Of a stretch of 64,000 bases of DNA, positions 16,181 through 56,737 are shown in pieces (positions within the stretch are counted from its first letter, which is position 1; each line of letters begins with the position of its first letter). Both the position numbers and the translations under genes were made by a program. Under the pieces are notes generated by a model, which saw nothing but the letters and a program-made list of their open reading frames with translations, made no database searches and had not been told where the DNA came from. The stretch spans positions 1-64,000 of the forward strand of contig NZ_ASGZ01000068.1 of the NCBI RefSeq assembly GCF_000495475.1, written 5' to 3'. This DNA comes from Candidatus Halobonum tyrrellensis G22. Lineage in GTDB: Archaea > Halobacteriota > Halobacteria > Halobacteriales > Haloferacaceae.

Positions 16181-16579
16181 CTTACACGTGCGGCCGTCCC
16201 CAAGCGATACCGCATGATTGTTATTAATGAACTGCCGTGTAGTCTCGGACGCCGACACCCGCTCTGTCCGGACGAGAGGTCGTCTCTCGCCCATCGAGAC
16301 GGGTAACTGGCACCGCCGGACCGCCGGCAACGAGGACGTACGAGGGGGGCGTCCCGACGGCCCACGACCGGGGGCGGATCCGAGGGACGCGAGACCCGGG
16401 AGTAAGGAGTGGTTACACCCCACACGCCCGGCCCGACGGCGGCGGAGGTGTCGCCGTCGCTCCCGCCGGAATCGTGGCGGCTACGGGCGGTACGCTCCGC
16501 CTGCGACCCGGGGCGCGCCCCGCCGTCCGCCGGGGATGGATTCGCCGAGCGGGGCGATAATCGAACCCTGAGGCCGGTA
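16181..16579. other. Divergent intergenic region
   Basis: It lies between the giant malectin gene (minus) and the DUF7344-type gene (plus). It contains a TATAACAAAG-like element at 16216-16225 facing the malectin gene, with AT-rich flanks. The remainder is GC-rich with no supported gene. Confidence 0.6.
16216..16225 (-). promoter_or_regulatory. AATAACAATC element before the malectin gene
   Basis: On the coding strand this reads AATAACAATC, 36 bases before the ATG at 16180. It is one of at least twelve related elements oriented toward surface genes in this window. Confidence 0.5.
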
Positions 16580-17218
16580 ATGACAGCGTCGCATACTCTT
16601 GTGGGGGGGGACCGTACCGCCGGTAGTGTAGTGAGCCTCCGAAACCAGGTTCGGGGTGACCCCCCGCGCGAGGAGTCGCGGTTGACCCGCGAGGACGTCT
16701 TCTCGCTCCTGAGCAACCGGCGGCGCCGGTACGTGCTGTACAGCCTGCGGAGCGAGGACGGGACGACGACCATCGGCGACCTGGCGACCCGGATCGCCGC
16801 CTGGGAGGCTGAGGTCGCGCCGGCGGCGGTGGGGTCGCGTCGGCGGAAGGTGGTGTACAACTCCCTCCAGCAGTCGCACCTCCCGCGTCTCGCCGAGAAC
16901 GACCTGGTCGTCTACGACCGCGAGGCGGGGACGGTCGACCTCACCGACCGCGGCGCGCGCGTCGGCGACTACCTCGCACGGGTGCCGGGGCGCGACCGTC
17001 GGTGGGGGTGGCTGTATCTCGGGCTGGCGGGCGTCGCCTGTCTCGTCGCCGTCGCCCACCTCGGCGGCGTCCCGCCGGTGGCCGGGGTAGCGGGCGAGGT
17101 GTGGTTCACGCTGTTCGCGGCGACGCTCCTGTTCGTGGCCGTCGGCAACGTCTCGACCGAGTACGTCGGGCGGTCGTCGGTCGAGGAGCCGCCCGAGCGG
17201 ACGGGCGAAGAAGGGTAA
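16580..17218 (+). CDS. DUF7344-type winged-helix membrane regulator
   Basis: This is a 212-residue protein from ATG 16580; an in-frame GTG at 16631 is a plausible alternative. The sequence LTREDVFSLLSNRRRRYVLY begins a winged-helix domain (about residues 40-130) with the hallmark (I/T)GDLATRIAAWE and HLPRLAENDLVVYD segments of DUF7344. Two hydrophobic C-terminal segments follow (about 145-167 and 170-190). DUF7344 proteins are common haloarchaeal putative transcription regulators. Two further members occur at 22675 and 55947, all next to surface-protein genes, which suggests local regulation. Ligand and targets are unknown. Confidence 0.85.
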   Translation: MTASHTLVGGDRTAGSVVSLRNQVRGDPPREESRLTREDVFSLLSNRRRRYVLYSLRSEDGTTTIGDLATRIAAWEAEVAPAAVGSRRRKVVYNSLQQSHLPRLAENDLVVYDREAGTVDLTDRGARVGDYLARVPGRDRRWGWLYLGLAGVACLVAVAHLGGVPPVAGVAGEVWFTLFAATLLFVAVGNVSTEYVGRSSVEEPPERTGEEG

Positions 17219-17292
17219 CCGCGGGCGCCGGAGGGCCGGCGGGGACCGGACGCCGGAACGGCCGAGAGGAACGGTCGCCAGTCGGGTCCCAA

Positions 17293-17342
17293 CGGGGCGA
17301 CCCGGTCGGGCGAGAGCCGCGCCGCAGGCGTGCCGTCGGCGG
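17293..17342 (-). repeat. Dispersed repeat copy B (TPAARLSPDRVAP)
   Basis: This matches 6816-6865 over about 50 bases. On the minus strand it reads NDPADGTPAARLSPDRVAPL within a frame without a credible gene. It may be a relic of the same C-terminal coding sequence or a recombination footprint. Confidence 0.6.
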
Positions 17343-17562
17343 GGTCGTTCGTCCAGTAGCTCGCGTCCTCGTTCGGGTGGTTCGTCACCGCCGGCACCGA
17401 CCGCCGACCACGGCTCCGCCCCGCCTCGACACCGGCGGGCGGCGACGGGCCGCCAACCCCAAACCTGCGCCGATACGGCCGTGAAACCGATTTTACTGCG
17501 GACGGAGTGGGGTCGACCGACCGGGGAGACGGCGGTCGCGGTCGCGCCGCGAGCGACGTGCT

Positions 17563-17582
17563 ACCCCACCGCGTCCGCCGTT
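17563..17582 (-). repeat. ORB-like origin repeat 1
   Basis: The minus strand reads AACGGCGGACGCGGTGGGGT, which matches the AACRGCGGACNNNGTGGKG consensus. It is the outermost left copy. Confidence 0.7.
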
Positions 17583-17766
17583 GTCGGGCGCGTTCGAGCG
17601 TCAGGGGTCCCACGAACGGAACGCAGGTTCGACCGAAACGGCGGGCGGAGCGAGATACCACCCTCGGCGGGAATCGAGCGACTGTCGGGACCGTTCGACC
17701 GGTCGCTACTCGGGCGGCGGGCGTTCGGTCGGGTCCTCGAACGAACGCCTGTCGTCGACGCCGAAC

Positions 17767-17786
17767 ACCCCACCGCGTCCGTAGTT
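17767..17786 (-). repeat. ORB-like origin repeat 2, degenerate
   Basis: The minus strand reads AACTACGGACGCGGTGGGGT. The GCG core is altered but the right half is intact. Confidence 0.5.
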
Positions 17787-17808
17787 AGGTTGACACGATC
17801 GGGGGTGG

Positions 17809-17828
17809 AACAGCGGACATCGTGGTGT
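17809..17828 (+). repeat. ORB-like origin repeat 3
   Basis: This reads AACAGCGGACATCGTGGTGT and is identical to the copy at 19885-19904 on the other side of the initiator gene. Confidence 0.75.
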
Positions 17829-17922
17829 GCGGCGGTAGATCGAATCGAGAAGTTGGCGGTAGAATCCCTAAGACGGGAGATAACGAGGAGATAGACGTTC
17901 AAACGGAGCCGTCCACACACTC

Positions 17923-17942
17923 CCCCCACTGTGTCCGCCGTT
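17923..17942 (-). repeat. ORB-like origin repeat 4, long form
   Basis: The minus strand reads AACGGCGGACACAGTGGGGG and continues into GGAGTGTG, an extended G-string shared with the copy at 18112. The two long copies are inverted and face away from each other across the AT-rich stretch. Confidence 0.8.
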
Positions 17943-17977
17943 CTTGCGCCGAAGGTGGGGGTGGGGGGTCGCGAGCG

Positions 17978-18060
17978 GTTTGTTTCACTACCCACTACTC
18001 GTTTTATTCTCGACGAAAGTGGAGTACGGTGAACTACGGCTAGATGGATTATAAAACTAC
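17978..18060. other. AT-rich candidate unwinding element
   Basis: This stretch is clearly AT-richer than its surroundings (GTTTTATTCTCGACG, GGATTATAAAACTAC) and lies between the two long inverted ORB-like repeats. It is the likely duplex-unwinding region of the origin, inferred from position and composition. Confidence 0.65.
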
Positions 18061-18111
18061 CGCCGGTCTAGAGCCTCCCGTCCGAGGGGGGAGGGGGAGG
18101 TTCGGAGCGAG

Positions 18112-18131
18112 AACAGCGGACATAGTGGGGG
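18112..18131 (+). repeat. ORB-like origin repeat 5, long form
   Basis: This reads AACAGCGGACATAGTGGGGG followed by GGAGTGT. It is the inverted partner of 17923-17942. Confidence 0.8.
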
Positions 18132-18164
18132 GAGTGTTCCCCCCGTTTCCTTTAAGTCAGCGAG

Positions 18165-18184
18165 AACAGCGGAAACAGCGGACG
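18165..18184 (+). repeat. ORB-like origin repeat 6, degenerate
   Basis: It holds two adjacent ACAGCGGA cores (AACAGCGGAAACAGCGGACG), followed by a CGGACGCGGTGG half-site. It overlaps the promoter of orc1/cdc6, so Orc binding could repress its own gene. Confidence 0.55.
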
Positions 18185-18195
18185 CTCCGGACGCG

Positions 18196-18205
18196 GTGGT
18201 TTTAT
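18196..18205 (+). promoter_or_regulatory. TATA-like element of orc1/cdc6
   Basis: GTGGTTTTATG lies about 33-40 bases before ATG 18238. It is the only AT-rich hexamer at this spacing and directly abuts an ORB half-site. Confidence 0.5.
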
Positions 18206-18237
18206 GCTCGCGTACGAGAGAGCGTGCGTCGAACACG

Positions 18238-19572
18238 ATGGGGTTGTTCGAACGGGACACGGAGATCTACCGGGACCGGGACGCGCTCCGGGAGGACTAC
18301 CAGCCGGCGGAGTTGGTCGGGCGCGACGAGGAGTTGCGGACGTACCGGGCGGCGCTCCAGCCGGTGATCAACGGCGAGCAACCGAACAACATCTTCCTCT
18401 ACGGCAAGACGGGGGTGGGGAAGACCGCGGCCACGCGCTATCTGCTCGAACACCTGAAGGACGACGCCGCGGAGTACGACGACATCGAACTCACCGTCGT
18501 CTTCCTCAACTGCGACGGGCTGACCTCGTCGTATCAGATCGCGACGCGACTGGTCAACGAGTTCCGGGGGGAGGCCGACCAGATCAGCACCACGGGCTAC
18601 CCACGCGCGAGCGTCTACGAGATGCTGTGGGACGAACTCGACGCGTGTGCGGGGACGGTGCTGGTCGTCCTCGACGAGGTTGACCACGTGGAGGACGACT
18701 CGATCCTCTATCAACTCCCGCGCGCCCGCGCGAACCAGAATCTCGGCGACGCGAAGGTGGGGATCGTCGGCATCTCGAACGACTTCTCGTTCCGCGACGA
18801 CCTCTCGCCGAAGGTGCGGAGCTCGCTGTGTGAACAGGAGATCCACTTCCCGGCGTACGACGCGACCGACCTCCAGAAGATCCTCGAACAGCGCGTCGAG
18901 GTGGCGTTCCACGAGGACGTCCTCGAACCCGGGGTGATCCCGCTGTGTGCGGCGTACGGCGCGAAGGACGCGGGCGACGCCCGGCAGTCGATCGACCTGC
19001 TGATGAAGGCGGGCGACCTGGCCCGGGACGACGACACCGACGTGGTGACCGAGGACCACGTCGACGGCGGTCGGCGGGCGCTCGAACGCGGCCGGATCAA
19101 GGAGGGGATCACCGGGCTGACCCAACACGGTCACCTCGTGTTGTACGCGCTGCTCACGCTCGAACTCGAGGGGGACGCGCCGATCCGCTCTCGGGACGTC
19201 CGCCCGCGGTACACCCGCTTCGCCGAGATGGCCGACCGCGACCCGCTGGTGCCGCGCCGGATGCGCGACCACCTCTCGGAACTCGCCATGCTCGGCATCA
19301 TCTCGGTCACCGAACGGAACGAGGGCCGCCGCGGCGGCACCTACCGCGAGTACGCCCTCGACATGGACGTCGACCTGATCCTCGACGCGATGGAAGACAC
19401 CGTCCGCGACGTCGGCGTCCACGGCTCCGTCCAGGACTTCCTCATCCGCGGCGACGCGCCCGACGACAACGGGGCGGGTCAGCACGGCGGTTCCAAGGGG
19501 TTCGACGCCGACCGGTCGGACTCGGCGTCCGACGACGACGGCGGCCGCGACCTCACGAACTTCGGCGACTGA
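18238..19572 (+). CDS. orc1: Orc1/Cdc6 replication initiator
   Basis: This is a 444-residue AAA+ protein from ATG 18238. The N-terminal PAELVGRDEELRTY box leads to Walker A GKTGVGKT (about residues 56-63). Walker B is VLVVLDEVDH (about 141-150), sensor 1 lies in GIVGISNDFSF, and sensor 2 in AKDAGDARQSIDLL. A C-terminal winged helix follows (about 310-400; RRMRDHLSELAMLGII). The end is an Asp/Ser-rich tail. It binds origin repeats, promotes melting and loads MCM. Its neighbours are origin repeats on both sides (17563-18184 and 19718-19962), so it very probably serves this origin. The composition matches that of the chromosome. Confidence 0.95.
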   Translation: MGLFERDTEIYRDRDALREDYQPAELVGRDEELRTYRAALQPVINGEQPNNIFLYGKTGVGKTAATRYLLEHLKDDAAEYDDIELTVVFLNCDGLTSSYQIATRLVNEFRGEADQISTTGYPRASVYEMLWDELDACAGTVLVVLDEVDHVEDDSILYQLPRARANQNLGDAKVGIVGISNDFSFRDDLSPKVRSSLCEQEIHFPAYDATDLQKILEQRVEVAFHEDVLEPGVIPLCAAYGAKDAGDARQSIDLLMKAGDLARDDDTDVVTEDHVDGGRRALERGRIKEGITGLTQHGHLVLYALLTLELEGDAPIRSRDVRPRYTRFAEMADRDPLVPRRMRDHLSELAMLGIISVTERNEGRRGGTYREYALDMDVDLILDAMEDTVRDVGVHGSVQDFLIRGDAPDDNGAGQHGGSKGFDADRSDSASDDDGGRDLTNFGD

Positions 19573-20078: not shown

Positions 20079-21524
20079 ATGCCAGTCGAGGTCACCCGTC
20101 GGGCAGCCCTCCTGAGTCTCGCATCGGGCGTCGTCGTCGGGCGCACGTCGGCGACCGGGCCGAACCGGTCCGCCGACCCGGTTCGCACACCCGAACCGAC
20201 CCGAACGACCCGCGGGGTCGACGCGACCGACGACCCCGCGGTCACGCTGGCGACGCGGAACCTCTACCTCGGCGCCGACCTGTTCCGCCTGTTCGCCGAA
20301 CGGGAGGGGTCCCCGGCGGCGGTGATCGGGTCGCTCCTCCGGCAGGTCGACGCGAGCGCGGTCGAACGGCGGATGGACGCCATCGCGGGCACGCTCGCGT
20401 CGACGCGGCCGGACGTCGTCGGCGTTCAGGAGGCGGCGCTGATCCGGACGGACGAGTCGAGCGACGGGCGGGACGTGGACGACCCGGACGCGACCACGGT
20501 CCGGTACGACTTCCTCGAACTCCTGCGCGAGGGCCTCTCCGCGCGCGGCGCCGCCTACGACGTGGCGGTCGTCTCCGAGACCACCGACGCGGAGTTCCCC
20601 GCGCTCGTCGACGACGAACGGGTCGACGTTCGGCTGACCGACCGCGACGCGGTGCTCGTCCGTCGAGGGGTGACCGAGGTTACCGACACACGGACGGCGA
20701 CGTTCGACACCGCGCTCACCGTCCCCGTCGGCGACGGGTTCACGCTCACGCGGGGGTACGCCGCGGTCGACTTGCGCGTCCGCGGGCGCGACCTCACCGC
20801 CGCGAGCACGCACCTCGAACCCGCCGACCCGGCGGTGCGGACCGCGCAGGCGCGGCAGCTCCGGTCGGCGGTGTCGTCGTCGCCCGCGGCGGTGCTCGGC
20901 GACCTGAACGACGGCCCGGCCGACCCGACGCAGGGGACGGACCCGGGCGCCTACGAGGTGCTGGCGGAGGCGTTCGACGACGCGCACGCCGCGAGCCGTC
21001 CGGACGGTGCCGTCGAACCGACCTGTTGTTTCCCGCCGTCGCTCCGGGACGGCGACCCGGAGACGGCGCTCACCGGACGGTACGACGTGGTGCTCTCGCG
21101 GGGACTCCGCCCGACCGCGGCGCGGCGGGTCGGCGTCGACCCCGACGCCAGAGTCGACGCGGACGGCGACCTGCTGTGGCCGTCGGACCACGCGGGCGTC
21201 GTCGCGTCGTTCGACCCCGCGGGGACCGGCGGCTCGACGGCCGCTCCCGGTCCGACGGCGACGACCGGGACGACAGCGACCAACGGGACGACCACGTCCG
21301 CGGCGCCCACAGCCGCCACACCGCCCGCCGACACCGCGTCGCCCGCCGCGACCGCCGCGCCGTCGACGCGGGGGACGACGGACGCCGAGCCGTCGACCGG
21401 GACGGCGTCTACTGGGACGGCGTCGACCGGAACGGCCGCTCCCGGGTTCGGGGCGCTCGCGGCGGTCGCCGGCGCACTCGCTGCCGGCGCGGGGCTGGCC
21501 TGGCGGTCCAACGACCCGGAGTGA
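20079..21524 (+). CDS. Tat-exported endonuclease/exonuclease/phosphatase-fold protein with PGF-CTERM tail
   Basis: This is a 481-residue protein from ATG 20079. The N-terminus has twin arginines (TRRAALLSLASGVVVG, residues 6-21). The EEP fold is marked by LATRNLYLGADL, the metal Glu in VVGVQEA (about 126), LTAASTHLEP (about 247), GDLNDGPAD (about 275) and the terminal SDHAGVV (about 370). A Thr/Ala/Pro-rich stalk (about 385-455) leads to APGFGALAAVAGALAAGAG plus charged residues, the PGF-CTERM archaeosortase signal. The protein is therefore exported folded and lipid-anchored on the surface. It probably hydrolyses phosphodiesters; the substrate (extracellular DNA, phospholipid or other) is unknown. 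Confidence 0.88.
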   Translation: MPVEVTRRAALLSLASGVVVGRTSATGPNRSADPVRTPEPTRTTRGVDATDDPAVTLATRNLYLGADLFRLFAEREGSPAAVIGSLLRQVDASAVERRMDAIAGTLASTRPDVVGVQEAALIRTDESSDGRDVDDPDATTVRYDFLELLREGLSARGAAYDVAVVSETTDAEFPALVDDERVDVRLTDRDAVLVRRGVTEVTDTRTATFDTALTVPVGDGFTLTRGYAAVDLRVRGRDLTAASTHLEPADPAVRTAQARQLRSAVSSSPAAVLGDLNDGPADPTQGTDPGAYEVLAEAFDDAHAASRPDGAVEPTCCFPPSLRDGDPETALTGRYDVVLSRGLRPTAARRVGVDPDARVDADGDLLWPSDHAGVVASFDPAGTGGSTAAPGPTATTGTTATNGTTTSAAPTAATPPADTASPAATAAPSTRGTTDAEPSTGTASTGTASTGTAAPGFGALAAVAGALAAGAGLAWRSNDPE

Positions 21525-21984: not shown

Positions 21985-22260
21985 TTATACCAGGCCCTCC
22001 GCGTTGAGACGGCGCCAGACGCGCTCACCGCGCTCGGTGATCCCGTAGACGCGCCCCTTGCGCTGCTCTTCCGAGACGAGTAGTTCGACCATCTCCTGTT
22101 CGCGGAGGTCCGAGAGGCTCCGGGAGACGTGTGTGATCGCGATCCCCGTGTCGGTCGCTAGCTGCGACGGGGTCGCCGGCCCTTCGAACAGTCGCTCGAG
22201 CACCCGCAGTCGGTAATCGGACCGAAGTACGAAGCTGAGCGTGTCCCAATCGTCATCCAT
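21985..22260 (-). CDS. Winged-helix transcription regulator
   Basis: This is a 91-residue protein from ATG 22258-22260. Longer upstream starts are possible, but the domain begins here. The sequence DYRLRVLERLFEGPATPSQL is the first helices, LATDTGIAITHVSRSLSDLREQ the recognition helix region, and GRVYGITERGERVWRRLNAEG the wing and last helix. It is a compact MarR/ArsR-like HTH typical of haloarchaea. The divergent region with perfect palindromes at 22458-22501 is the likely operator area. Targets are not known; the divergent DUF7344-type gene is a candidate. Confidence 0.85.
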   Translation of the reverse strand: MDDDWDTLSFVLRSDYRLRVLERLFEGPATPSQLATDTGIAITHVSRSLSDLREQEMVELLVSEEQRKGRVYGITERGERVWRRLNAEGLV

Positions 22261-22674: not shown

Positions 22675-23352
22675 ATGACAGAAACGAGTCTCAGCACGGC
22701 CGACGACGCTCCGAGCGATTCCACCGCGTCGAACGGGGGGGCGGAGCTGGCCGAGTCCACCGGGCAGGGGGAACTGGACGTAGGTGCCGAGGGGGAACAA
22801 GGCGACGTTAATGCGCCCGAACCGCTCACTACGAACGATATACACTCGCTACTCAAGAACCAACGGCGACGGTACGTCCTCGAGTACCTCCGGGACAACG
22901 ACGAACCCGTCCGCCTGCGTGACGTGGCCGAACAGATCGCCGCCTGGGAGAACGACAAGGAACTCAAGACGATCACGTCGAGCGAGCGCAAGCGCGCGTA
23001 CGTCGGTCTCTACCAGTGCCACCTGCCGAAGATGGACGACGCCGACGTCGTCTCGTTCGACCAGAACCGCGGCGACATCGAGATCGGTCCGAACGCGGAC
23101 CAGCTCATGTCGTACCTCACCGACGACGAGGAGACGGAAGAAACGGACGCGGCCGTCCACTCGTGGGCCGACCGCTACCTCGCGGTCTCCGGCGCGGCAC
23201 TGCTGGTGACGGTCGTCGTCGCGGCCGGGTTCGGCGCGAGCGGCGTCGGGGTGGCACTCGCGGCGCTCACGTCGCTGTCGGTCGGCGCGCTCTCGCTCGC
23301 CGAGAAGCGATCGCTCGCCGCCGACGACGGCGACGACGAGACCGCGGCGTAA
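22675..23352 (+). CDS. DUF7344-type winged-helix membrane regulator
   Basis: This is a 225-residue protein from ATG 22675; ATG 22654 is an alternative start. An acidic N-terminal tail (about 55 residues) precedes NDIHSLLKNQRRRYVLEYLR and LRDVAEQIAAWENDKE. The later YVGLYQCHLPKMDDADVVSFD completes the DUF7344 winged-helix domain (about 58-150). Two hydrophobic segments (about 170-190 and 192-210) give a membrane hairpin, then an acidic end. It has the same architecture as the proteins at 16580 and 55947. It is probably a transcription regulator anchored at the membrane. A GTATAACTATACC box at about 22631 may be its promoter. Confidence 0.85.
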   Translation: MTETSLSTADDAPSDSTASNGGAELAESTGQGELDVGAEGEQGDVNAPEPLTTNDIHSLLKNQRRRYVLEYLRDNDEPVRLRDVAEQIAAWENDKELKTITSSERKRAYVGLYQCHLPKMDDADVVSFDQNRGDIEIGPNADQLMSYLTDDEETEETDAAVHSWADRYLAVSGAALLVTVVVAAGFGASGVGVALAALTSLSVGALSLAEKRSLAADDGDDETAA

Positions 23353-24015: not shown

Positions 24016-27000
24016 CTACTCGCTCCCCTCCCGGCGCACGCCGAGTGCGACCCCGGCGAGCGCCACGAGCGCTGCGAGTAGCGCGGTGACCGGGCCGAAC
24101 CCGGGCGTCGTGGTCTCGGTCACGCCGGCGGTCGCCGTCTGGCCGGCGCCGGCCCCTTCGCCGACGCTGAGACTCACCGTCTCGTCGTCGACCTGCGCGG
24201 TGTACGTCCCGGCCGCGTCGATGGTCTGGACGAAACTGACCGAGACCGTCTCCCCGCCGGGCACCTCGACCGTCCGCTGGTTGACGACTTCGCCGAACAG
24301 TTCGAGTTCGACCGTGTAACTCCCCGCCTCGTCGCCCGCGTTCTCGACGGTGGCGGTGAGTTCGACCGGCTGACCGGTTCCGACGGTCGTCCGGTTGGCT
24401 TCGAGCGCGGTGACGCTGATGTCGGCCGGCGCGGGCGTCGCAGTCGGCGTGTCCGTGGGCGTCTCGGTCGGCGTGTCCTCGTCGTCGTCGTCGTCGCCGC
24501 CGCCTCCGCCGCCCGCGTTGCTGCCGCCGTCGTCACCATTGTCACCGCCGCCTCCGCCTCCACCGCCTCCACCGCCACCGCCACCGCCGCCACCGCCTCC
24601 ACCGCCACCGCCGCCACCGCCGCCACCGCCTCCGCCGCCACCGCTACTGGCGGCCGCCACGGTCACGTTGTAGGTGGTGGTGTCGGTGTTGTTCTCGTCG
24701 TCGGTGACGCTGAGTTCGACCGTGAACTCGCCGTCGTCGTCGTAGGTGTGGGTCACCGACTCGCCGGTGGCCGTCCCGCCGTCGCCGAACGCCCACTCGT
24801 AGCTCTCGATCGTCCCGTCGTCGCTGGAGTTGGCCGCCGAGAACTCGATCTCTTCGCCGGCGGTCGCGTTCGCGGGCGCGTCGATGATCGCCAGCGGCTG
24901 ACCCTCGTCGGTCCCGACGACCTCGACGGTCGCGAGCGCGTCGGCGGTCGAGCCGTTGGCGTCGACCACCGTCACGACGACCGTCGCGTCGCCCGCTTCG
25001 GTGAACGTGTAGTCGACCGTCGGCTCGCTCGTGGTCCGGTCGACCGTGAGGTCGCCGTCGAAGTCCCAGCGGTACTCGGCGACGCCGTCCTCGTCGGACG
25101 ACCCGCTGGCGTTGAGCGTGACCTCCTCGTCGACGGTCGCGTTCGCGGGCGCCTCCAGGACGGCCGTCGGCGGCGTCGCGTTGGCGTCGGCGGGCGCCAC
25201 GTCGACGGTCGTCGTGACCGTATCGGCGTTGTTCGCGGCGTCCGTGACGGTGAGTTCGACCGTGTAGTTGCCGGGGTCGGTGTACGTGTGTTGGACGACC
25301 TCCTCCGAGGCGCCCGAGCCGTCACCGAACGTCCACTCGTAACTGTCGATCCCGACGTTGTCCGCCGACCCGACCGCCGAGAACGTCACGGCGTTGTTCG
25401 CCGTCGCGTTCGTGCGGACGGCGATGTCGGCCGTCGGCGACTCCGCGTCGGTGACCGTCACCGTCCGACTCGTCGACGCGGTCGCCCGGTCCCCGTCGAC
25501 GACGGTGAGCGTCACCGTGACGGTACCGACCGTGGTGAACTCGTGGTCGATCGTCGGCTCCGTGGTGCGGGCGTCGAGCGACCCGTCGCCGTCGAGGTCC
25601 CAGCGGTACTCGACGATGCCGTTCTCGTCGGACGACCCGCTGGCGTTGAGCGTCACCGCCGTCCCCGCGGGGACGGTGTCGTCGACGGTGAACGCCGCGG
25701 TCGGCGGCGTGTCGGCCGCCTCGACGCTGATCGACTGGGTGGTCGAGTTGGCGTTGCCGTCGTCGTCGGTGACGGTGAGTTCGACCGTGTAGTTGCCGGC
25801 GTCGTCGTAGGCGTACTCGACCGTCTCGCCGGTCGCGGTGGCGCCGTTACCGAACTCCCACTCGTAGCTCTCGATCGTCCCGTCGTCGCTGGAGTTGGCC
25901 GCCGAGAACTCGATCTCTTCGCCGGCGGTCGCGTTCGCGGGCGCGTCGATGACCGCGGTCGGCGGCGTCTCGTTCGCCGCGACGCTGATCGACCGGGTGG
26001 TCGAGTTGGCGTTGCCGTCGTCGTCGGTGACGGTGAGTTCGACCGTGTAGTTGCCGGCGTCGTCGTAGGCGTACTCGACCGTCTCGCCGGTCGCGGTGGC
26101 GCCGTCACCGAGCTCCCACTCGTAGCTCTCTATCGTCCCGTTGTCGGTCGACGCCGACCCGGAGAACTCGACGGCGCTCCCGACGGTCGCGTTCGTCGGT
26201 CCGTCGATGACCGCCACCGGCGCGTCGTCGGTCGCGTTCGGCGTGCCGGTGTCGTTCGCCGCGACCGAGATATCGGCGGTGGCGGTGTCGGTGTTGCCGT
26301 CGTCGTCGGTGACGGTGAGTTCGACCGTGTACTCGCCGGCGTCGGCGTAGGCGTACTCGGCCGTCTCGCCCGTGGCGGTGGCGCCGTCACCGAGCTCCCA
26401 CTCGTAGCTCTCGATCGACCCGTCGTCGGTCGACCCGCTCGCGTCGAGCGTGACCTCCTCGCCGGCGGTCGCGTTCGCGGGCGCGTCGATAGCCGCGGTC
26501 GGCCCGTCGTCGGGTGCGGGCTGGCCGTCCGTCGCGTTGCCGAACAGCGTGAAGACGTACACGTTGGTTTCGACCGGGTCCAGCCCGTCGGCCGTGACCG
26601 TGTTCGTCTCGGTGTCGAGCGTCGCGCTCCCGACGCGCTGCCACTCGCCGTCGGCCCGCGAGCCGCCCTCTTGTGACTCCACGTACACGTACTGCCACAG
26701 TTCGAGCGACGACTCCTCGACCCCGGCGACCTCGTCGTCGGAGTAGGACATGCTGAACGTATCGAGCACCGGGTTCTGGATGACCGGCGAGTACTGGAGG
26801 TAGTCGCCGGTGCTAGTCAGATTCGACGACGGGGCGCTCACGGATCTCGTGTCGGTGAACGTCGCGCCGCTGCCGCCGGTGAATCCGAAGTTGGTGTCGT
26901 CGCCGGCGGTCATGTTGATCACCTCGTGGTCGAGCGCGCCGAAGTACCGGTTCCCGGCCCCGGGGAAGTGGTAGTACGCCCAGTCGTTGTCGATGGAGGT

Positions 27001-28503
27001 TACGTCGGTCAGCGTCGCGTTCGGACTCTCCGCCTCGAAGTGGAACCCCCACTGGTTGCCGACCGCCGTCGTATTGCGGTGGATGACGTCGTTCGCGTTG
27101 TTGTGTGCGAACCCGATGTCCTGATTGTCCTCCGAGCGACTGTCGGTGATCGTCACGCCGTCCGACCCAACGGTGAACGTCCCGTAGAGGTTGCCGCTGG
27201 TCATGAGGTTGGTGATCGTGGCGTTCTGCGAGTTCCGGACCTCGACGCCGACGGTCCAGCCGCCGCCGCTGCTCTCGGTGGTGACGTTCCGCACGGTCAC
27301 GTTCGAGACGCCCTCGACGCCGACCGCGGCCCGGCCGCTGCCGGCGATCGTGTGGCCGTTGCCGTCGAACGTCACGTCGTCGGCGTTCACGTCGATACAG
27401 GTGTCGCTTCCGTCGGAGATGTCGCCCGTGAGTTCGTACGTCCCGGACTCGTTGATGGCGCGACAGCCCGCCACCTCGGTGGCGACGGTCTCGACGGTCA
27501 GCGACTCGGTCGCGGCGTCGTCGTTACGGCCCTCGTCGATCACCGTCACGGTCGCCTCGAACTCGCCGCCGCTCGGGTAGGTGTACTCGACGGTCGGCTC
27601 CTCGGTCGTCGTCTCGACCGTGCCGTCGCCGTCGAAGTCCCACTGGTACTCGATGATCGCGCCGTCGTCGGTCGACCCGCTGGCGTCGAACGACACCGCC
27701 TCGTCGGTGGTCGCGTCCGTCGGGTCGGCCGTGAGGTCGGCGTCGGGCGCGACGTCGTCGCACGTACCGGGCTCGACGGTGACGTTCTCGTTCATCTCGA
27801 GCGTCACGTTCTCGTCGCCGCCCGTGCGGACGAACCACTCGGTGAGCGTGTTGTTCTCGGGGCTCCCGCTCCACTCCTCGAACGGGTACGCCGACGACTC
27901 CTCGTTGAACGCGGGGTCGATCGTGATCCGGTCGAACGACCGGTTCAGCCCGGTGAACGCGCCGCCGTCGTTGCGGTCGTCGGACCACATCCAGACGACG
28001 TTGCTCCGCGACCCGTTATGGACGAACTGGTCGTCGCGGTTGTAGTAGTCGTCGTCCTCGACGGTCCACGAGCCGTTCTCGGGCAGGCCGGTGAACGTCA
28101 TCTCGACGGTCCCGCCGTTCGACCCGTTCACCGCGTCGTGCAGTAGGACCAGGCTGGTACCGTCCGACCCGTCGTAGACGAAGAACTGGCTGGCCTGGTT
28201 CTCCTGGAGGTCGATCGTTCCGATCGAACTGTAGGTCGCCCGCGAGTCGTTGATCCGGTAGTCGTAGAACTCTTCGACGGTCTGTGAGCCGTCGCCGAGC
28301 GGCTGGATCACCTCACAGGTGTCGCCCTGTCTGACCGCGTACTGGTCGGACGACGGCGGAACGTCGCCCGGGATGTCGGCCGCCGCGGCCGCCCCGCCCG
28401 ACGTGGAGACCGCTCCCGCCACGGAGACGGTCATCGTCGAGGCGACGACGGCGACGACGACCGCGAGCGTGAGCAGTCGCTCGCCCGTCCCGTGCCCGTT
28501 CAT
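24016..28503 (-). CDS. PKD / beta-helix surface protein with 33-glycine run and PGF-CTERM anchor
   Basis: This is a 1,495-residue protein from ATG 28501-28503. A signal peptide (LLTLAVVVAVVASTMTVSVAG) is followed by a beta domain (about 45-240), a PKD domain (250-338), a NosD-type parallel beta-helix (about 346-648; VTIADSRS-like turns such as GVTITDSRSEDN), and seven more PKD domains (about 660-1283; YTVELTVTDDDGN repeated). Then come 33 consecutive glycines, a second Gly/Asp run, a Thr/Pro stalk, a CARDB-like domain (about 1362-1448) and the tail TPGFGPVTALLAALVALAG plus Arg/Glu. This is the PGF-CTERM signal for archaeosortase processing and lipid anchoring. The role is probably adhesion or surface matrix. 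Confidence 0.9.
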   Translation of the reverse strand: MNGHGTGERLLTLAVVVAVVASTMTVSVAGAVSTSGGAAAAADIPGDVPPSSDQYAVRQGDTCEVIQPLGDGSQTVEEFYDYRINDSRATYSSIGTIDLQENQASQFFVYDGSDGTSLVLLHDAVNGSNGGTVEMTFTGLPENGSWTVEDDDYYNRDDQFVHNGSRSNVVWMWSDDRNDGGAFTGLNRSFDRITIDPAFNEESSAYPFEEWSGSPENNTLTEWFVRTGGDENVTLEMNENVTVEPGTCDDVAPDADLTADPTDATTDEAVSFDASGSTDDGAIIEYQWDFDGDGTVETTTEEPTVEYTYPSGGEFEATVTVIDEGRNDDAATESLTVETVATEVAGCRAINESGTYELTGDISDGSDTCIDVNADDVTFDGNGHTIAGSGRAAVGVEGVSNVTVRNVTTESSGGGWTVGVEVRNSQNATITNLMTSGNLYGTFTVGSDGVTITDSRSEDNQDIGFAHNNANDVIHRNTTAVGNQWGFHFEAESPNATLTDVTSIDNDWAYYHFPGAGNRYFGALDHEVINMTAGDDTNFGFTGGSGATFTDTRSVSAPSSNLTSTGDYLQYSPVIQNPVLDTFSMSYSDDEVAGVEESSLELWQYVYVESQEGGSRADGEWQRVGSATLDTETNTVTADGLDPVETNVYVFTLFGNATDGQPAPDDGPTAAIDAPANATAGEEVTLDASGSTDDGSIESYEWELGDGATATGETAEYAYADAGEYTVELTVTDDDGNTDTATADISVAANDTGTPNATDDAPVAVIDGPTNATVGSAVEFSGSASTDNGTIESYEWELGDGATATGETVEYAYDDAGNYTVELTVTDDDGNANSTTRSISVAANETPPTAVIDAPANATAGEEIEFSAANSSDDGTIESYEWEFGNGATATGETVEYAYDDAGNYTVELTVTDDDGNANSTTQSISVEAADTPPTAAFTVDDTVPAGTAVTLNASGSSDENGIVEYRWDLDGDGSLDARTTEPTIDHEFTTVGTVTVTLTVVDGDRATASTSRTVTVTDAESPTADIAVRTNATANNAVTFSAVGSADNVGIDSYEWTFGDGSGASEEVVQHTYTDPGNYTVELTVTDAANNADTVTTTVDVAPADANATPPTAVLEAPANATVDEEVTLNASGSSDEDGVAEYRWDFDGDLTVDRTTSEPTVDYTFTEAGDATVVVTVVDANGSTADALATVEVVGTDEGQPLAIIDAPANATAGEEIEFSAANSSDDGTIESYEWAFGDGGTATGESVTHTYDDDGEFTVELSVTDDENNTDTTTYNVTVAAASSGGGGGGGGGGGGGGGGGGGGGGGGGGGGGGGGGDNGDDGGSNAGGGGGGDDDDDEDTPTETPTDTPTATPAPADISVTALEANRTTVGTGQPVELTATVENAGDEAGSYTVELELFGEVVNQRTVEVPGGETVSVSFVQTIDAAGTYTAQVDDETVSLSVGEGAGAGQTATAGVTETTTPGFGPVTALLAALVALAGVALGVRREGSE
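24544..24642 (-). repeat. GGN trinucleotide tract encoding 33 Gly
   Basis: Ninety-nine bases of glycine codons, mixed GGC and GGT/GGA, with no interruption. Length variation by slippage is plausible because the codons are arranged in short periodic blocks. Confidence 0.85.
25736..26140 (-). repeat. Near-identical PKD-coding repeats
   Basis: About 115 bases around 25738-25850 recur almost exactly at 25993-26107. A further block at 25858-25957 recurs near 24790-24890. The identity extends to silent positions, showing recent intragenic duplication or conversion within the PKD array. Confidence 0.75.
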
Positions 28504-28568
28504 TCGTATCCTCCCCCGCCGTCGAGGACCAACCCTCGTGTCATACCCGCCCTCATACACCGAGGGGG

Positions 28569-28580
28569 TTTTGTTATAAC
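28569..28580 (-). promoter_or_regulatory. GTTATAACAAAA element before the PKD/beta-helix gene
   Basis: The coding strand reads GTTATAACAAAA, 66 bases before the ATG at 28503. It belongs to the recurrent TATAACAAAG-like set and would give a leader of about 40 bases. Confidence 0.5.
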
Positions 28581-28734
28581 CAGGCTTAACGCCCACAATG
28601 GTCTCGTGTCGACGTTTGATTCCGTTCCTTGCGTCGCATCCGTCGACGAACTATCTCCCTCGACTCGCTGATTCCTCCCGCCTCCGTCCGGCGATACCTA
28701 TCGGGCCACGCACGTGTTCCGAGGAATATGTGCG

Positions 28735-28744
28735 TCATAACAAC
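28735..28744 (+). promoter_or_regulatory. TCATAACAAC element before the 28771 AlkP gene
   Basis: It ends 26 bases before ATG 28771, exactly where a TATA-like core element would sit for a leaderless mRNA. Confidence 0.5.
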
Positions 28745-30538: not shown

Positions 30539-31546
30539 CTACCCGAACCGGCGGTAGAGGTGGGCCGCGCCCCGCACCGCGGGCGAGCCGCGTTCGAGGG
30601 TGTAAAAGCCCGCGAGCGACGGCGCGAACTTCGACTTGTACTCACAGAGCCGCGGTTCGTCCGCGCCCACCAGGTCGTACGTCTCCACGCCCCGGTCGGC
30701 CGCGCTCGTGATCACGTGCCAGTCGAGCAGGTCGTTCACCGGCGCGTCGGCGTCGTGTTTCGCCCCGCCCTGCCAGCGGTAGACGGTGTCGTCGCTCTCG
30801 TAGAGGACGATCCCCCCGGCGGGTTCACCCTCCAACAGGAGTTCGGTCGGCCGGATCGCTCCCTCGGGGAGCGCGTCGTACAGGTCACACACCGTCCCCG
30901 TCGAGAGGGGGTACTCCTTCTCTTGGGCGTCGTATCGTTCGCGCACGCGCGCGAGGATGCGTTCGATGGCGGCGTGGCCGCCCTCGCGTACGTCGTAGTC
31001 GACGTCCTCGCCCCGGCGGACGTTCTTCCGGGCGTCGCTGCTGAACGCCGAGAGGAGGTCGTCGGGCCCCTCGGTCAGGTCGACGTGGTAGGTGTGTTTC
31101 GGCGTCGCCTCGAACTCGCCCCACTGGAACGGCCGCACGTCGGGGTACGCGGGGGTGGTCCGGAGGCTGACGTAGCGGGGGTCCGCCAGTTCGTCGACCC
31201 GGTCGAGACACGCCTCGAGGAACCGCCGGTGGCGGCGCTCGCGCTTCCGGCGCTTCAGTTTGTCGAGGTTCATCGGTGCCGGCCCCAGATACGGGACCAG
31301 CAGCGACGGCGGCGGCGAGAACGCGGTCTCGACGCCGAACACGTCCCGCGTGAACAGCGGGAACACGCCCACCGGCTCCTGTCCCTTGAACCCGACCAGC
31401 GGGAGGGGGTCGGTGCCCGACGCCTCCGCGAGTACGTCGAGCGCCTCGTAGCGGTGTAGCGGTGTGGCCGTCGGCGCGCGGTCGACGTAGCCGTTCCACG
31501 TCTCGGCGTCGGCGGGGTCGACCGCCTCGACGTCGATGCCGCTCAT
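30539..31546 (-). CDS. FemAB/GNAT-fold acyltransferase-like protein
   Basis: This is a 335-residue protein from ATG 31544-31546. It has the tandem GNAT layout of FemAB-like proteins: LHRYEALDVLAEASG, then VGFKGQEPVGVFPLF, then the C-terminal AcTP-like LLEGEPAGGIVLYE and NDLLDWHVITSAADRGVETYDL. In surface-polysaccharide loci this family is assigned to amino-acyl or acyl transfer onto glycans or lipid-linked precursors; the donor here is unknown. Its start overlaps the upstream AlkP gene by four bases (GAATGAGC), so the pair forms an operon with linked function. Confidence 0.85.
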   Translation of the reverse strand: MSGIDVEAVDPADAETWNGYVDRAPTATPLHRYEALDVLAEASGTDPLPLVGFKGQEPVGVFPLFTRDVFGVETAFSPPPSLLVPYLGPAPMNLDKLKRRKRERRHRRFLEACLDRVDELADPRYVSLRTTPAYPDVRPFQWGEFEATPKHTYHVDLTEGPDDLLSAFSSDARKNVRRGEDVDYDVREGGHAAIERILARVRERYDAQEKEYPLSTGTVCDLYDALPEGAIRPTELLLEGEPAGGIVLYESDDTVYRWQGGAKHDADAPVNDLLDWHVITSAADRGVETYDLVGADEPRLCEYKSKFAPSLAGFYTLERGSPAVRGAAHLYRRFG

Positions 31547-33206: not shown

Positions 33207-33216
33207 GCTTTGTTAT
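33207..33216 (-). promoter_or_regulatory. ATAACAAAGC element before the frameshifted AlkP gene
   Basis: The coding strand reads ATAACAAAGC, 26 bases before the ATG at 33181. This is core-promoter spacing. Confidence 0.55.
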
Positions 33217-33365
33217 CCGTCTGTTACCCACCGTCGACCGCCCCGCCACGCCCCCGTCGACCCCCGGTAAGAGCCGGATACTTTCCCACTATCTCGACTG
33301 TTTCACCCTGCTGTCCGACCGTCATACTGGTTCACACGACGTCGTGTCCTAGTATTTAATCTGAT

Positions 33366-44706: not shown

Positions 44707-46332
44707 TCAGTCGCGCCCGCGCGCGAACAGGAGCGCGGCGCACGCCAGCGCGACGAGGGGGACGAGCGGGCCGAGCGGCGCGGTCGTCGCGGTGCCGCCG
44801 GCCGCCCCGCCGTCGTCCGTTCCCTCGGCCGTCGCGGCGTCGCCGGCCGCGTCGGTCGTCGCGGCGGCCGTCGTCTCGGTCGCCGCCGCCGCCGAGACGC
44901 TGATCGTCGCGGTGGTCTCGAGTCCCGTGTCGGGCACCGCCACCGTCAGGCTGTACTCGCCGCGGTCGAACGCGGTCGTGTCGACCGCGAGGCGGCCGTC
45001 GGCGGGCACGCGGACGGCGACGCCCTCGTGGTCGCCGGCCGCGGTCACCGTCGCGTCGCCGAACGCCGCGCGGAGGGCGTCGTCGTCGATGCCGTCGGCG
45101 CGCACCCAGGCGGTGTAGCCGCCGCGCTCGGAGTCGAGCACGAGCGAGCCGTCCTCGACCGACGCCGAGACCGACTGGGTCGCGACCGTCATGGCGTCGT
45201 CGCTCACCCGCCGGTCGCCGTCGCCGTCGAGGTCGACGACGGCGCTCTTCAGGCGGTTGACGAGGACGTACCGGTCGCCGACCGCCAGATCGCTCGTGTT
45301 CACGACTACCACCCCGTCGGCGGAGGCGGTCCGTGTCGACACCGCGTCGCCGACGTCACCGTCGTCGGTCACGCGGTGGAGGGCGTACGGCGTGTTCGGA
45401 CGCCCCTCGTACAGTAGCGTCTGGCCGGCCCACACCGTCCCGCCGGCCGCGTACGCGTCCGCGTCGGGGACGGTCACGCTCACGGTCCGGGTCGGCGCCG
45501 TCCCGGTGTTGCGGTACGGCTCGTCGACGCCGTCGTCGTAGGAGGCGTTTCCGCTGGTCTCGCGGTACAGCGACAACTGGAGCCGTTCGCCGTCCGCCAC
45601 CGGTCGGTTCAGGGGAACGTCCACGTCGCGTCTGGTGTGGTTCGGCGTCACGTACTCGGAGACGCCGACGACCTCGCCGGTCTCCGAGCCGGCCGTCTCG
45701 CGGACGACGACGTAGCCGCGGTTCGGGAGGACGCCGCTGACGTGGAGCGTCTGCGGGGTCTCGAACGGGGCGACCACGCGGGTCTGCAGGTCCGCGTGCG
45801 CCTCGATGACGCTGTACTCGACGCGCGTCGGACCGGCGACGTTGCCCGCCGGGTCGGTGGCGGAGACGGCGACTTCGAACCGCTGGCCGGTCCTCGACTC
45901 CAGGATCGACGAACTCGTCCCGTTGGCGACGTGAACGTACATCCGGTCGCCGGCGCTCGCGTTCACCGGCGTCTCCAACTGTATCGTCACCCGCTCTCTG
46001 TCGGGCGTGACGGTGACCGCCGAGACGTTCCGGCGCTGGCGGTCGATGTAGAGGGTCACGTCCTCGACGGACGCGTTCCCGACCGTCCCGTCGAACTTCT
46101 CGTCGACGCCGAAGTCGAGCGTGACGCTACTGACCGCGGCGGGTCCGCCACCCGTGGTCACGACGCTGTCTCCCGGTTCGAACTCGACGCCCACCGAGTA
46201 CGTCGTCTGCGTTACTGGCGTGTGTGGGTGGGGAGTCGCTCCCAACGGCTCGATGGCGGCGACCGGTCCCGTGAGACCGGCGACCACCAAGAGGCAGATC
46301 AGCCCCCCTGCCCGGATTCGGTTGCGTATCAT
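44707..46332 (-). CDS. BGTF-type surface domain protein
   Basis: This is a 541-residue protein from ATG 46330-46332. A signal peptide (LICLLVVAGLTGPVAA) precedes beta-sandwich domains. VTVPDADAYAAGGTVWAGQTLLYEG and NTPYALHRVTDDGDV (about 290-330) match the BGTF/S-layer-like surface domain of haloarchaeal glycoproteins. A Thr/Ala-rich stalk (about 480-515) leads to a C-terminal hydrophobic helix (LVPLVALACAALLFARGRD). This tail resembles a membrane anchor but lacks the exact PGF triplet. Several N-x-S/T sites are present. The role is as a surface structural or adhesion protein. Confidence 0.8.
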   Translation of the reverse strand: MIRNRIRAGGLICLLVVAGLTGPVAAIEPLGATPHPHTPVTQTTYSVGVEFEPGDSVVTTGGGPAAVSSVTLDFGVDEKFDGTVGNASVEDVTLYIDRQRRNVSAVTVTPDRERVTIQLETPVNASAGDRMYVHVANGTSSSILESRTGQRFEVAVSATDPAGNVAGPTRVEYSVIEAHADLQTRVVAPFETPQTLHVSGVLPNRGYVVVRETAGSETGEVVGVSEYVTPNHTRRDVDVPLNRPVADGERLQLSLYRETSGNASYDDGVDEPYRNTGTAPTRTVSVTVPDADAYAAGGTVWAGQTLLYEGRPNTPYALHRVTDDGDVGDAVSTRTASADGVVVVNTSDLAVGDRYVLVNRLKSAVVDLDGDGDRRVSDDAMTVATQSVSASVEDGSLVLDSERGGYTAWVRADGIDDDALRAAFGDATVTAAGDHEGVAVRVPADGRLAVDTTAFDRGEYSLTVAVPDTGLETTATISVSAAAATETTAAATTDAAGDAATAEGTDDGGAAGGTATTAPLGPLVPLVALACAALLFARGRD

Positions 46333-54014: not shown

Positions 54015-54299
54015 TCAGAGGTAGCCCAGCGACTCGAGGCGACTCTCGACTTCCTCGTTGTCCTCGTCGTCGTTCTCCCGGTCGAGCGGGTCGGCGGCGG
54101 CGCCGGTCGTCGTGCTCCCCTCCTCGACCCGCGAGAGCACCTCTTCGAGGGTGTACTCGACGTACTCCGCGGGGGTCTCGAAGTCGGTCCCCTCGACTCG
54201 GGCGGCGACGCGCTCGTGGATAGAGTCGCGGATCGCGACGTTCGTCGTGTCCTCGTCCGTGTCCTCACGCGAGTCGGCCGCGTCGCTTCCGTCGGTCAT
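54015..54299 (-). CDS. Ribbon-helix-helix-like protein with sulfatase-type C-terminal tail
   Basis: This is a 94-residue protein from ATG 54297-54299. TTNVAIRDSIHERVAARVEG forms the strand and first helix, and ETPAEYVEYTLEEVLSRVEE the second helix of a CopG/MetJ-like ribbon-helix-helix. After an acidic linker it ends in EEVESRLESLGYL. That end is nearly the same as the tails of the AlkP-fold proteins at 4770 (QLERLGYL) and 28771 (DRLSDLGYL). It is transcribed divergently from the AlkP gene at 54467, whose product lacks such a tail. It may regulate its neighbour or bind the same partner; this is inference. Confidence 0.75.
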   Translation of the reverse strand: MTDGSDAADSREDTDEDTTNVAIRDSIHERVAARVEGTDFETPAEYVEYTLEEVLSRVEEGSTTTGAAADPLDRENDDEDNEEVESRLESLGYL

Positions 54300-54382: not shown

Positions 54383-54396
54383 GTAGCTGTATAATT
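54383..54396 (+). promoter_or_regulatory. TATA-like element of the 54467 AlkP gene
   Basis: GTATAATTAAGCC lies about 70-84 bases before ATG 54467 in the divergent region; a second AT-rich GTATAAG is just upstream. Confidence 0.4.
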
Positions 54397-54466
54397 AAGC
54401 CCCCCCGTCGAAACACGGGACTGTGAGCGAACACACCGTTCCGGCTCCCGTCAGGGGTGAGCCACG

Positions 54467-55756: not shown

Positions 55757-55946
55757 CCCGGCTGGGTCCGTTCCCGTTCGCGGGTCTCTCCCTGGCGGCT
55801 TCCGTCGTCCGTTCTCCGCTCACCGACGGCCCGACCGCTCGACGAGTTCGAGCGACAGCGTCAGTTTCGCCCGTTCGGCCCGCCGAGCGGTCGGGTGATC
55901 CGGCGGTCGAAGGAGCGGTGAGGGAGGTCGGCGCGAGACTAACCGG

Positions 55947-56480
55947 TTACCAGTACTCGGGGACGTCCGCGCCGTCCCGCGTTTCGAGGTAGTGGTAGCC
56001 GGCGAGGAGGAGGAACCCGGCGGCGAGCCCGAGCGCCACGTACGCGTCCGGGAGGGCGTCGAAGCCGGGAACGTCGACGGCGGCGGCGCCGGCGACGACG
56101 CCGCCTGCGACCCCCAGCGCGAGGTAGTACCGGAGCCAGGGGCGGTCGTCGTGCCGTTCGGTCATGTACCGGGTCACCTCGTCGGCGTCGCCGGTGAGTG
56201 CGACCAGCCGCTCCTCGTCGTCGTAGGTGACCACGCCCGCCTCCTCGAGTTTCGGGACGTGCGTCTGGTAGAGCGAGATGTACGTCTTCTTGCGGTCCTC
56301 GCGGGTCAACTCGTCGACGTCGGTGCCGCTCTCCCAGGCGGCGATCTGTTCTGCGAGTTCGTGGATCCCGACCGGCGAGCCGTGGTGGCTCAGATACGAG
56401 ATGACGAACCGCCGCCGAGGGTTGCTCAACAGCGTGAACGCTAAGTCCTCCGATAGACCGGCCGTCTCGGCGTCAGACAT
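55947..56480 (-). CDS. DUF7344-type winged-helix membrane regulator
   Basis: This is a 177-residue protein from ATG 56478-56480. LAFTLLSNPRRRFVISYLSHH, IHELAEQIAAWESGTDVDEL and KKTYISLYQTHVPKLEEAGVV are the DUF7344 winged helix (about 10-105). Two hydrophobic segments (about 118-138 and 143-165) form a membrane hairpin. It sits at the head of the diacetamido-sugar operon, transcribed divergently from it. It is therefore the best local candidate for controlling that operon. Related proteins are at 16580 and 22675. Confidence 0.87.
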   Translation of the reverse strand: MSDAETAGLSEDLAFTLLSNPRRRFVISYLSHHGSPVGIHELAEQIAAWESGTDVDELTREDRKKTYISLYQTHVPKLEEAGVVTYDDEERLVALTGDADEVTRYMTERHDDRPWLRYYLALGVAGGVVAGAAAVDVPGFDALPDAYVALGLAAGFLLLAGYHYLETRDGADVPEYW

Positions 56481-56602
56481 GCGAACTAGCGTACCTCACA
56501 TACAGTTGGCATCGGGGGTCGTCACACACGGTTCGGAGAGCGTGCCGCCCGGCGCCGCTCGGCCCCGGTTCGTAACACGGTCCCGTCGTTGTCGGCCTCC
56601 TC

Positions 56603-56613
56603 GCTTTGTTACT
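56603..56613 (-). promoter_or_regulatory. AGTAACAAAGC element before the DUF7344-type gene
   Basis: The coding strand reads AGTAACAAAGC, about 123 bases before the ATG at 56480. One position differs from the consensus. Confidence 0.45.
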
Positions 56614-56724
56614 CTCTCACTACTCGCTCACTAACGCACACGAGGGGGGACCCGGCGTCGAACGGTCCGAGGGGCCGTCGCGGTCGATTCCGGCCGAAAT
56701 AACCTCATACTACCGGGAAAGTGA

Positions 56725-56737
56725 CTCATAACAAAGC
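56725..56737 (+). promoter_or_regulatory. CTCATAACAAAGC element before the sugar operon
   Basis: It matches the consensus and lies 126 bases before ATG 56863, suggesting a leader of about 100 bases. Confidence 0.55.

Follow-up and report, generated by a model that had tools for sequence, protein, structure and literature searches.

Haloarchaea appear to switch on many genes for cell-surface sugars and proteins through one shared, unusual promoter sequence. The sequence is an element with the core TAACAA, which we analysed in Candidatus Halobonum tyrrellensis G22 (assembly GCF_000495475.1; 3,675,087 bases, or 3.68 Mb, in 72 contigs) on contig NZ_ASGZ01000068.1, here called C68; the window is the stretch C68:1-64000, 64,000 nucleotides in length. 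Our preferred reading, to which we give a probability of about 0.6, is that the element acts, in place of a TATA box, as the core promoter for a regulon of cell-surface glycan genes that is widespread but patchy in haloarchaea and depends on a membrane-anchored protein of the DUF7344 family. As judged from the sequences, the promoter position and the regulon are well supported; binding of DUF7344 to the element, and activation instead of repression, are what we infer. The original prediction for the window had proposed a shared noncanonical core promoter and a surface regulon, a proposal now supported by the position and orientation of the element, the absence of TATA words, gene content, and recurrence across genera and families.

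Copies of the element on C68 and their position

Twelve copies had been predicted in the window, each pointing at its downstream gene, and the evidence for them proved stronger than claimed: TAACAA was present on the predicted strand at 12/12 sites, all of them intergenic and gene-facing, and 10/12 scored above the threshold of an independently trained matrix, the two copies below it being those at 16216 and 28735. This matrix was built from 84 sites in relatives' loci, with C68 and two relatives' loci (G005 and G015b) excluded from training; its positions 0 to 5 are invariant by design, the training sites having been picked by exact TAACAA. On C68 it found 15 sites, namely ten of the twelve copies and five past the window, and none on the reversed contig. 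The word TATAACAAAG, with at most one mismatch, had seven matches in the window as compared to 0.05 expected from shuffles, and ATAACAAAG had eight matches genome-wide, 8/8 of them on C68 between 33 and 87 kb (reversed control, 1). The bare hexamer is hardly enriched across the genome, since it occurs 103 times as compared to 89 in the reversed control; positions were listed for all but three of these places. An interval of 71 kb (C68:16,218-87,264), picked after the sites were seen, holds 19 of the 103 where 2.0 would be expected (Poisson P = 6e-13), and the element locus thus continues past the window, up to 87 kb of C68. According to our own gene calls, 18/19 clustered occurrences are intergenic, and the remaining one, at 50886, lies within a gene. 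All 18 intergenic occurrences face a gene, including 8/8 for which one orientation alone could do so, bearing out the predicted orientation; 17 of the 38 transcription units between 16 and 88 kb have an element. For these orientation and unit counts, two gene starts were corrected by hand (g10 and g23) and one gene (g20b) was added. Among the other 81 listed genomic TAACAA, 54 go on with C or G, and the spacings to predicted starts are scattered.

The twelve copies in the window are listed below in coordinate order, each with the distance from the first T of TAACAA to the start codon and, where above threshold, its matrix score.

16215..16236, minus strand: element copy, T of TAACAA at 16223; 43 nt before ATG 16180; below matrix threshold
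28568..28589, minus strand: element copy, 73 nt before the gene for a PKD-domain protein; 22.6 bits
28725..28746, plus strand: element copy, 33 nt before a type I phosphodiesterase-like gene (28771); below matrix threshold
33207..33228, minus strand: element copy, 34 nt before a frameshift-broken gene starting METLLLGVD... (ATG 33181); 27.2 bits
37742..37763, minus strand: element copy, 37 nt before ATG 37713, protein without Pfam match; 26.6 bits
43114..43135, minus strand: element copy, 110 nt before the gene for uridine diphosphate-N-acetylglucosamine (UDP-GlcNAc) 2-epimerase; 22.4 bits
44453..44474, minus strand: element copy, 33 nt before the gene for a 415-aa protein without Pfam match; 24.6 bits
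46377..46398, minus strand: element copy, 53 nt before the gene for a DUF7282 protein; 23.9 bits
47979..48000, plus strand: element copy, 231 nt before a polysaccharide flippase gene; 26.8 bits
52220..52241, plus strand: element copy, 84 nt before the gene for a DUF1616 protein; 24.1 bits
56603..56624, minus strand: element copy, 131 nt before the gene for DUF7344-A (g36); 19.6 bits
56716..56737, plus strand: element copy, 134 nt before a hexapeptide transferase gene, divergent from the copy at 56611; 25.0 bits

Comparison with relatives revealed that the full signal is bipartite, GNA-N8-ATAACAAW. In 50 pooled sites from C68 and the loci of three relatives, and counting from the T of TAACAA, the upstream part has G at -12 in 72% and A at -10 in 90%, while the core is preceded by A at -1 in 86% and followed by a +6 base that is A or T in 94%, by G at +7 in 64% and by C at +8 in 68%. 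An extra CTC had been described on the left of some copies; it does belong to the signal, as just a weak part of a motif that reaches about 12 bases further upstream. Genome-wide, C68 accounts for 11 of the 12 matches to the bipartite pattern (reversed control, 0) and for 12 of the 20 matches to the looser GNA-N9-TAACAA (reversed control, 3). Degenerate forms were found before two further genes, TATAACTAT before g16 (at -41) and TAACTTA before g51, which suggests that the regulon may be larger than the set marked by exact TAACAA.

The position of the element was analysed in the family of this genome, at 361 predicted transcription-unit starts from 11 loci (G015b left out), with genes less than 60 nt from the previous gene left out as operon-internal; 106 of these starts have TAACAA within 150 nt and 255 do not. 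There were 46 occurrences of TAACAA with its first base between -36 and -32, and none with it between -31 and -17; as some predicted starts are truncated, some spacings are inflated. At the 255 starts without TAACAA, TATA-like words peak at -31 to -28, with 32 of the 68 word occurrences in -60 to -6 (overlaps counted), whereas no TATA-like word was found at -31 to -28 in the 106 starts bearing TAACAA. At leaderless distance, AACAAW thus spans about -31 to -26 and overlaps the usual TATA position. The excerpted text of PMC4983044 gives the haloarchaeal promoter consensus as a transcription factor B (TFB) recognition element (BRE) CGAAA, a TATA word TTWT and a WW -10 element, and describes 72% of Haloferax volcanii protein-coding transcripts as leaderless. 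Like this canonical core promoter, the element has an AT-rich box whose distance from the start codon is that of TATA; it differs in reading ATAACAAW in place of TTWT, and no CGAAA-type BRE was found just upstream of the box (A at most 18% at positions -7 to -2). Five copies had originally been placed 26-36 bases before a start codon; of the twelve, only those at 28735, 33207, 37743 and 44454 lie at or near leaderless distance, with the one at 16216, at 43 nt, near it. AT-rich words are also present at 6252 and 21853, the two positions at which plain TATA boxes of housekeeping genes had been proposed.

Genes behind the element and its spread across haloarchaea

In the window, the genes served by the element encode three proteins placed at the surface by eye, namely a PKD-domain protein, a DUF7282 protein (judged to be secreted) and a giant protein behind the copy at 16223 (judged to be probably secreted). 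The others encode UDP-GlcNAc 2-epimerase, phosphodiesterase-like enzymes, a hexapeptide transferase, a flippase, a DUF7344 regulator, a DUF1616 protein and two proteins without Pfam match, of which the one starting at ATG 37713 is by eye a membrane protein. This gene content supports the proposal of a cell-surface regulon.

The matrix was also applied to 80 named haloarchaeal loci, which were the best 80 of 433 DUF7344 stretches and were chosen solely for encoding a DUF7344 protein. It found 184 sites as compared to 8 in the reversed control, with at least one site in 61/80 loci as compared to 8 in the control; the named genomes may include kin of the genomes used to train the matrix. Gene calls were made for 72/80 loci, covering 159/184 sites; 136/159 face a start within 250 nt, 26 of these at 32-33 nt, and two lie within coding sequence. 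Sites whose orientation is informative were correctly oriented in 61/65 cases in the named loci and in 47/49 cases in the family loci, the latter count leaving out G005 and G015b. The 136 first genes behind these sites include 20 DUF7344, 16 Phosphodiest, 16 Hexapep and 14 DegT aminotransferase genes, as well as seven SIS/glutamine-amidotransferase (GlmS-like), seven nucleotidyltransferase and six UDP-GlcNAc 2-epimerase genes. As a control, a random draw of 110 from the 1,029 other genes of these loci, which includes later genes of element-driven operons, contains nine DUF7344, two Hexapep and two DegT genes, with Phosphodiest not among the 25 families listed; DUF7344 is inflated in both sets because the loci were selected for it. 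Among Haloferax loci with DUF7344, L213, L217, L219, L232 and L233 have the element, whereas L189, L202, L203, L204 and L239 do not.

Class-wide, 363/391 genomes have at least one bipartite match. Loci of the same family rich in the pattern were found on contig C14 of G021 (6/6), C12 of G008 (10/16) and C1 of G009 (10/16), and, among genomes of that family with listed places, G004-G007, G010, G013 and G017 have no such cluster. Such a locus in genus g6 contains many genes with TAACAA at a distance of 32-36 nt upstream of their start codons. Genomes of families f4 and f6 often have 10-20 matches as compared to 0-4 in the reversed control, with G415 (23 vs 10) and G299 (0 vs 0) as outliers; in f6 the element is scattered along the chromosome at recurrent sites (places listed in part). 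These counts indicate that the element is not private to this genome, that it is patchy, and that in some families it is not confined to a single locus.

Several other features of C68 were noted around these genes. The gene behind the copy at 33207 (31543-33181, minus strand) is split by a frameshift into an N-terminal part starting METLLLGVD... and a C-terminal part in another frame, and may represent an assembly error or a pseudogene; G021_g28, an intact one-frame relative, resembles the phosphodiesterase-like protein at 28771. A C-terminal tail of the form ~RLxxLGYL/V is shared by g7 (4770-6173), g18 (28771-30417), g20 (31543-32331), g26 (40327-41745), g34 (54015-54299) and g48 (C68:68513-69934), of which g26 and g48 match Sulfatase and g18 matches Phosphodiest, with no family match for g34 (94 aa) or the g20 piece. 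Hydrophobic C-terminal segments are present in g13 (20079-21524), g17 (24016-28503) and g29 (44707-46332), two of them with a PGFG tail; presumably these resemble archaeosortase substrates. In the stretch 17219-19572, a Cdc6/Orc1 gene (g12) follows a 1-kb gap between predicted genes, a possible replication origin beside the surface locus. At C68:83661-84951 (the L001/L002 border), an 83-aa glycosyltransferase-like piece (by eye) and a low-scoring open reading frame suggest a decayed gene.

Candidate readers of the element and alternative explanations

The original prediction had left the choice between a dedicated pair of TATA-binding protein (TBP) and TFB and a dedicated activator; TFB or TBP turned out to be weak candidates, and a DUF7344 protein is better supported. 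Three DUF7344 genes and a gene for a further small winged-helix protein lie in the window:

55947..56480, minus strand: DUF7344-A (g36), winged helix plus two C-terminal hydrophobic helices; Pfam PF24035, 3e-30; leading candidate regulator
22675..23352, plus strand: DUF7344-B (g16), second DUF7344 protein; degenerate TATAACTAT at -41
16631..17218, plus strand: g11, third DUF7344 protein; Pfam match
21985..22203, minus strand: g15, small winged-helix protein of the HVO_A0261_N family; divergent from DUF7344-B

All three are full-length DUF7344 proteins and match PF24035, with 95.7 (g11), 108 (g16) and 104.8 bits (g36) against a cut-off of 27.8. The AlphaFold2 model of g36 (predicted local distance difference test score 87.8) shows a winged helix followed by two C-terminal helices, which are hydrophobic in g36 and likewise in g11 and g16 according to a 19-residue hydropathy scan. 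The folds nearest to this model in Foldseek are small winged-helix regulators, with SrnR, BigR and HlyU among the first ranks, though weakly by E-value (best E 9.8e-3, probability 1.00); the fold search gave no match at E of 0.001 or below, and a sequence search against solved structures gave no match. A protein of this kind is thus predicted to fit a membrane-anchored one-component regulator, with a DNA-binding fold and transmembrane helices.

DUF7344-A tracks the element between genomes. Among 46 genomes hand-picked from the extremes of element counts, and with a 200-bit cut set after the scores were seen, a DUF7344-A match of at least 200 bits was found in 16/19 element-rich genomes as compared to 0/27 element-poor ones (Fisher P = 1e-9); in genus g21 the counts were 6/7 and 0/12. 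In a tree of DUF7344 proteins, in which the label for a nearby element was assigned per genome for relatives and bootstrap support is unsettled, 23/135 rows have an upstream element, 21 of them of the A type (g36-like) and two in a large clade that includes the g16-like proteins of the B type. None of the 13 rows that form a separate clade has an element nearby. In three genomes of genus g6 (G012, G016 and G020), the gene order is DUF7344, GlmS-like, divergent elements, nucleotidyltransferase-like, DUF7344, the enzymes being assigned by eye. The copy at 56603..56624 makes g36 a putative target of its own product. DUF7344-A as the putative reader of the element is the best explanation of this co-occurrence, of the profile across genomes and of the possible self-regulation.

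The proposed mechanism is that GNA-N8-ATAACAAW replaces the TATA box of many genes for surface-glycan synthesis and surface proteins. TBP and TFB alone would probably use the element weakly, because AACAAW at about the TATA position is a poor TATA word and is not accompanied by a CGAAA-type BRE. A membrane-anchored winged-helix protein of the DUF7344-A type would contact the upstream GNA part, ATAACAA, or both, possibly joined by DUF7344-B and the small HVO_A0261_N protein, and would recruit TBP and TFB, turning the regulon on according to the state of the envelope. Because no canonical TATA word remains, activation is preferred to repression, and because the DUF7344-A gene lies behind the element in a number of genomes, the switch would be autoregulatory. 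A bolder version, in which Halobacteria have a second class of core promoter, one without TATA, and DUF7344 is its dedicated, membrane-tethered and self-controlling specificity factor that helps the basal machinery at ATAACAA and governs surface glycans in much of the class, is tentative, with the odds clearly against it.

Several observations, beyond the selection of the 46 genomes, weigh against the preferred reading. Weaker DUF7344 matches are present in 26/27 element-poor genomes; G145, G055 and G049 have 5-7 element matches and no DUF7344-A match of 200 bits; G015 has no DUF7344 match near its element cluster; and just 2/70 of the DUF7344 genes used to fetch the named loci have an element within 400 nt upstream. 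The A type is not resolved as a clade in the DUF7344 tree, and the co-occurrence of element and DUF7344 may reflect a shared accessory glycan locus. As to the element itself, its symmetry is ambiguous (palindrome or direct repeat, 0.54 vs 0.51), 21/38 transcription units in the C68 stretch have no copy, and genus g21 as well as families f2, f3 and f8 include many genomes whose count is not above the reversed control. The matrix found 5 sites (1 reversed) in 65 pieces carrying the genome's other listed TAACAA, and 67/81 listed TAACAA elsewhere in the genome are also intergenic (crude caller, short pieces), so that intergenic location by itself says little.

Under a different reading, which we consider unlikely although it is the strongest of the competing ones, the element is an operator lying over the core promoter, a DUF7344 or HVO_A0261_N repressor blocks TBP, and TATAACAA is usable unaided on release. 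Small winged-helix regulators are often repressors, and the DUF7344 model resembles proteins of this type, with SrnR, BigR and HlyU among the first-ranked matches; the HVO_A0261_N cluster is present in 25/53 loci with the element as compared to 1/19 without it, and the element does overlap the core-promoter position. A repressor site, however, need not remove the TATA word, yet none is found at -31 to -28 in starts bearing the element. Lower still stands the explanation that the element is a special core promoter recognised by a dedicated paralogue of TFB or TBP, DUF7344 being a mere neighbor. TFBs are numerous in haloarchaea; this genome has ten full-length ones, one partial match and two TBPs, and a TFB gene is present in 17/72 DUF7344 loci with gene calls, as well as in G008 and G009; but no TFB or TBP gene was found on C68, 14 of the 17 loci belong to Natrialbaceae, a tree of TFBs singles out no one TFB of this genome as partner, and TFB is not associated with the element, since 14/53 loci with it and 3/19 without it have a TFB gene. 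One such gene, L192_g6 of Halovenus carboxidivorans L192, has the element 98 nt upstream, which speaks for this explanation.

Horizontal transfer of glycan genes together with a general weak promoter, involving no dedicated factor, would be consistent with the patchiness of both the element and DUF7344-A between species and with the often accessory nature of glycan loci. The bipartite element is nevertheless shared, with fixed spacing, by different genes in different locations, and the recurrent sites scattered over the chromosomes of family f6 also argue against it; we consider this explanation very improbable. Chance AT-rich words or a mobile repeat can be set aside with near certainty, given the shuffle expectation for the window, reversed controls near zero in this genome, and copies whose flanks are unrelated by eye.

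Significance and comparison with known systems

To our knowledge, it is for the most part still open how archaea control their surface glycans, and a single BRE/TATA model is the usual description of archaeal promoters. An element that replaces the TATA box, and the candidate membrane-anchored regulator linked to it, bring both questions within reach of direct tests in genetically tractable haloarchaea; the element also provides a marker for finding surface-glycan genes and a first functional hypothesis for DUF7344, a Pfam domain of unknown function. In the open-licence PubMed Central literature we found no mention of DUF7344 and, judging by titles and the starts of abstracts, no description of the element. 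The likely novelty is an archaeal core promoter in which another box takes the place of TATA and which is tied to a family of probably membrane-anchored regulators; if the bolder version is true, the DUF7344 system would be an archaeal counterpart of envelope-sensing alternative sigma factors.

As compared to the canonical haloarchaeal core promoter, in the excerpt of PMC4983044, the element has a nearly equal distance from the leaderless start codon and obeys the same orientation rule; it differs in consisting of ATAACAAW and an upstream GNA box, with no adjacent CGAAA and no canonical TATA word. RosR of Halobacterium (PMC4287449, in excerpt) is likewise a haloarchaeal DNA-binding regulator; by-eye comparison of its published site, TCGnCGACGAGnTCGnCGAC, with the element consensus showed the two to be unrelated, and RosR was rejected as the reader. 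In family f4, RosR/PadR-like genes (by eye) lie behind the same bipartite element (L140, L141, L151 and L154, from G412, G355 and G188). CsmR of Haloferax volcanii, in the excerpt of PMC13286277, is a winged-helix regulator of surface structures whose site adjoins the core promoter; its published site, TATCA(N4)TGATA, differs by eye from the element consensus and adjoins ordinary BRE/TATA elements on their upstream side, and CsmR was likewise rejected. The same excerpt describes ArnR and ArnR1 of Sulfolobus as transmembrane helix-turn-helix regulators of a surface structure, and by this description they can be likened to DUF7344, in another lineage and with another target. At the archaellum promoters of Methanococcus and Pyrococcus, EarA, also as described there, is a winged-helix activator serving one surface-structure regulon, and is thought to offset a weak BRE and to help recruit TFB; by description it is a different protein from DUF7344, and in the system described here the TATA position itself is replaced and the targets are glycan genes.

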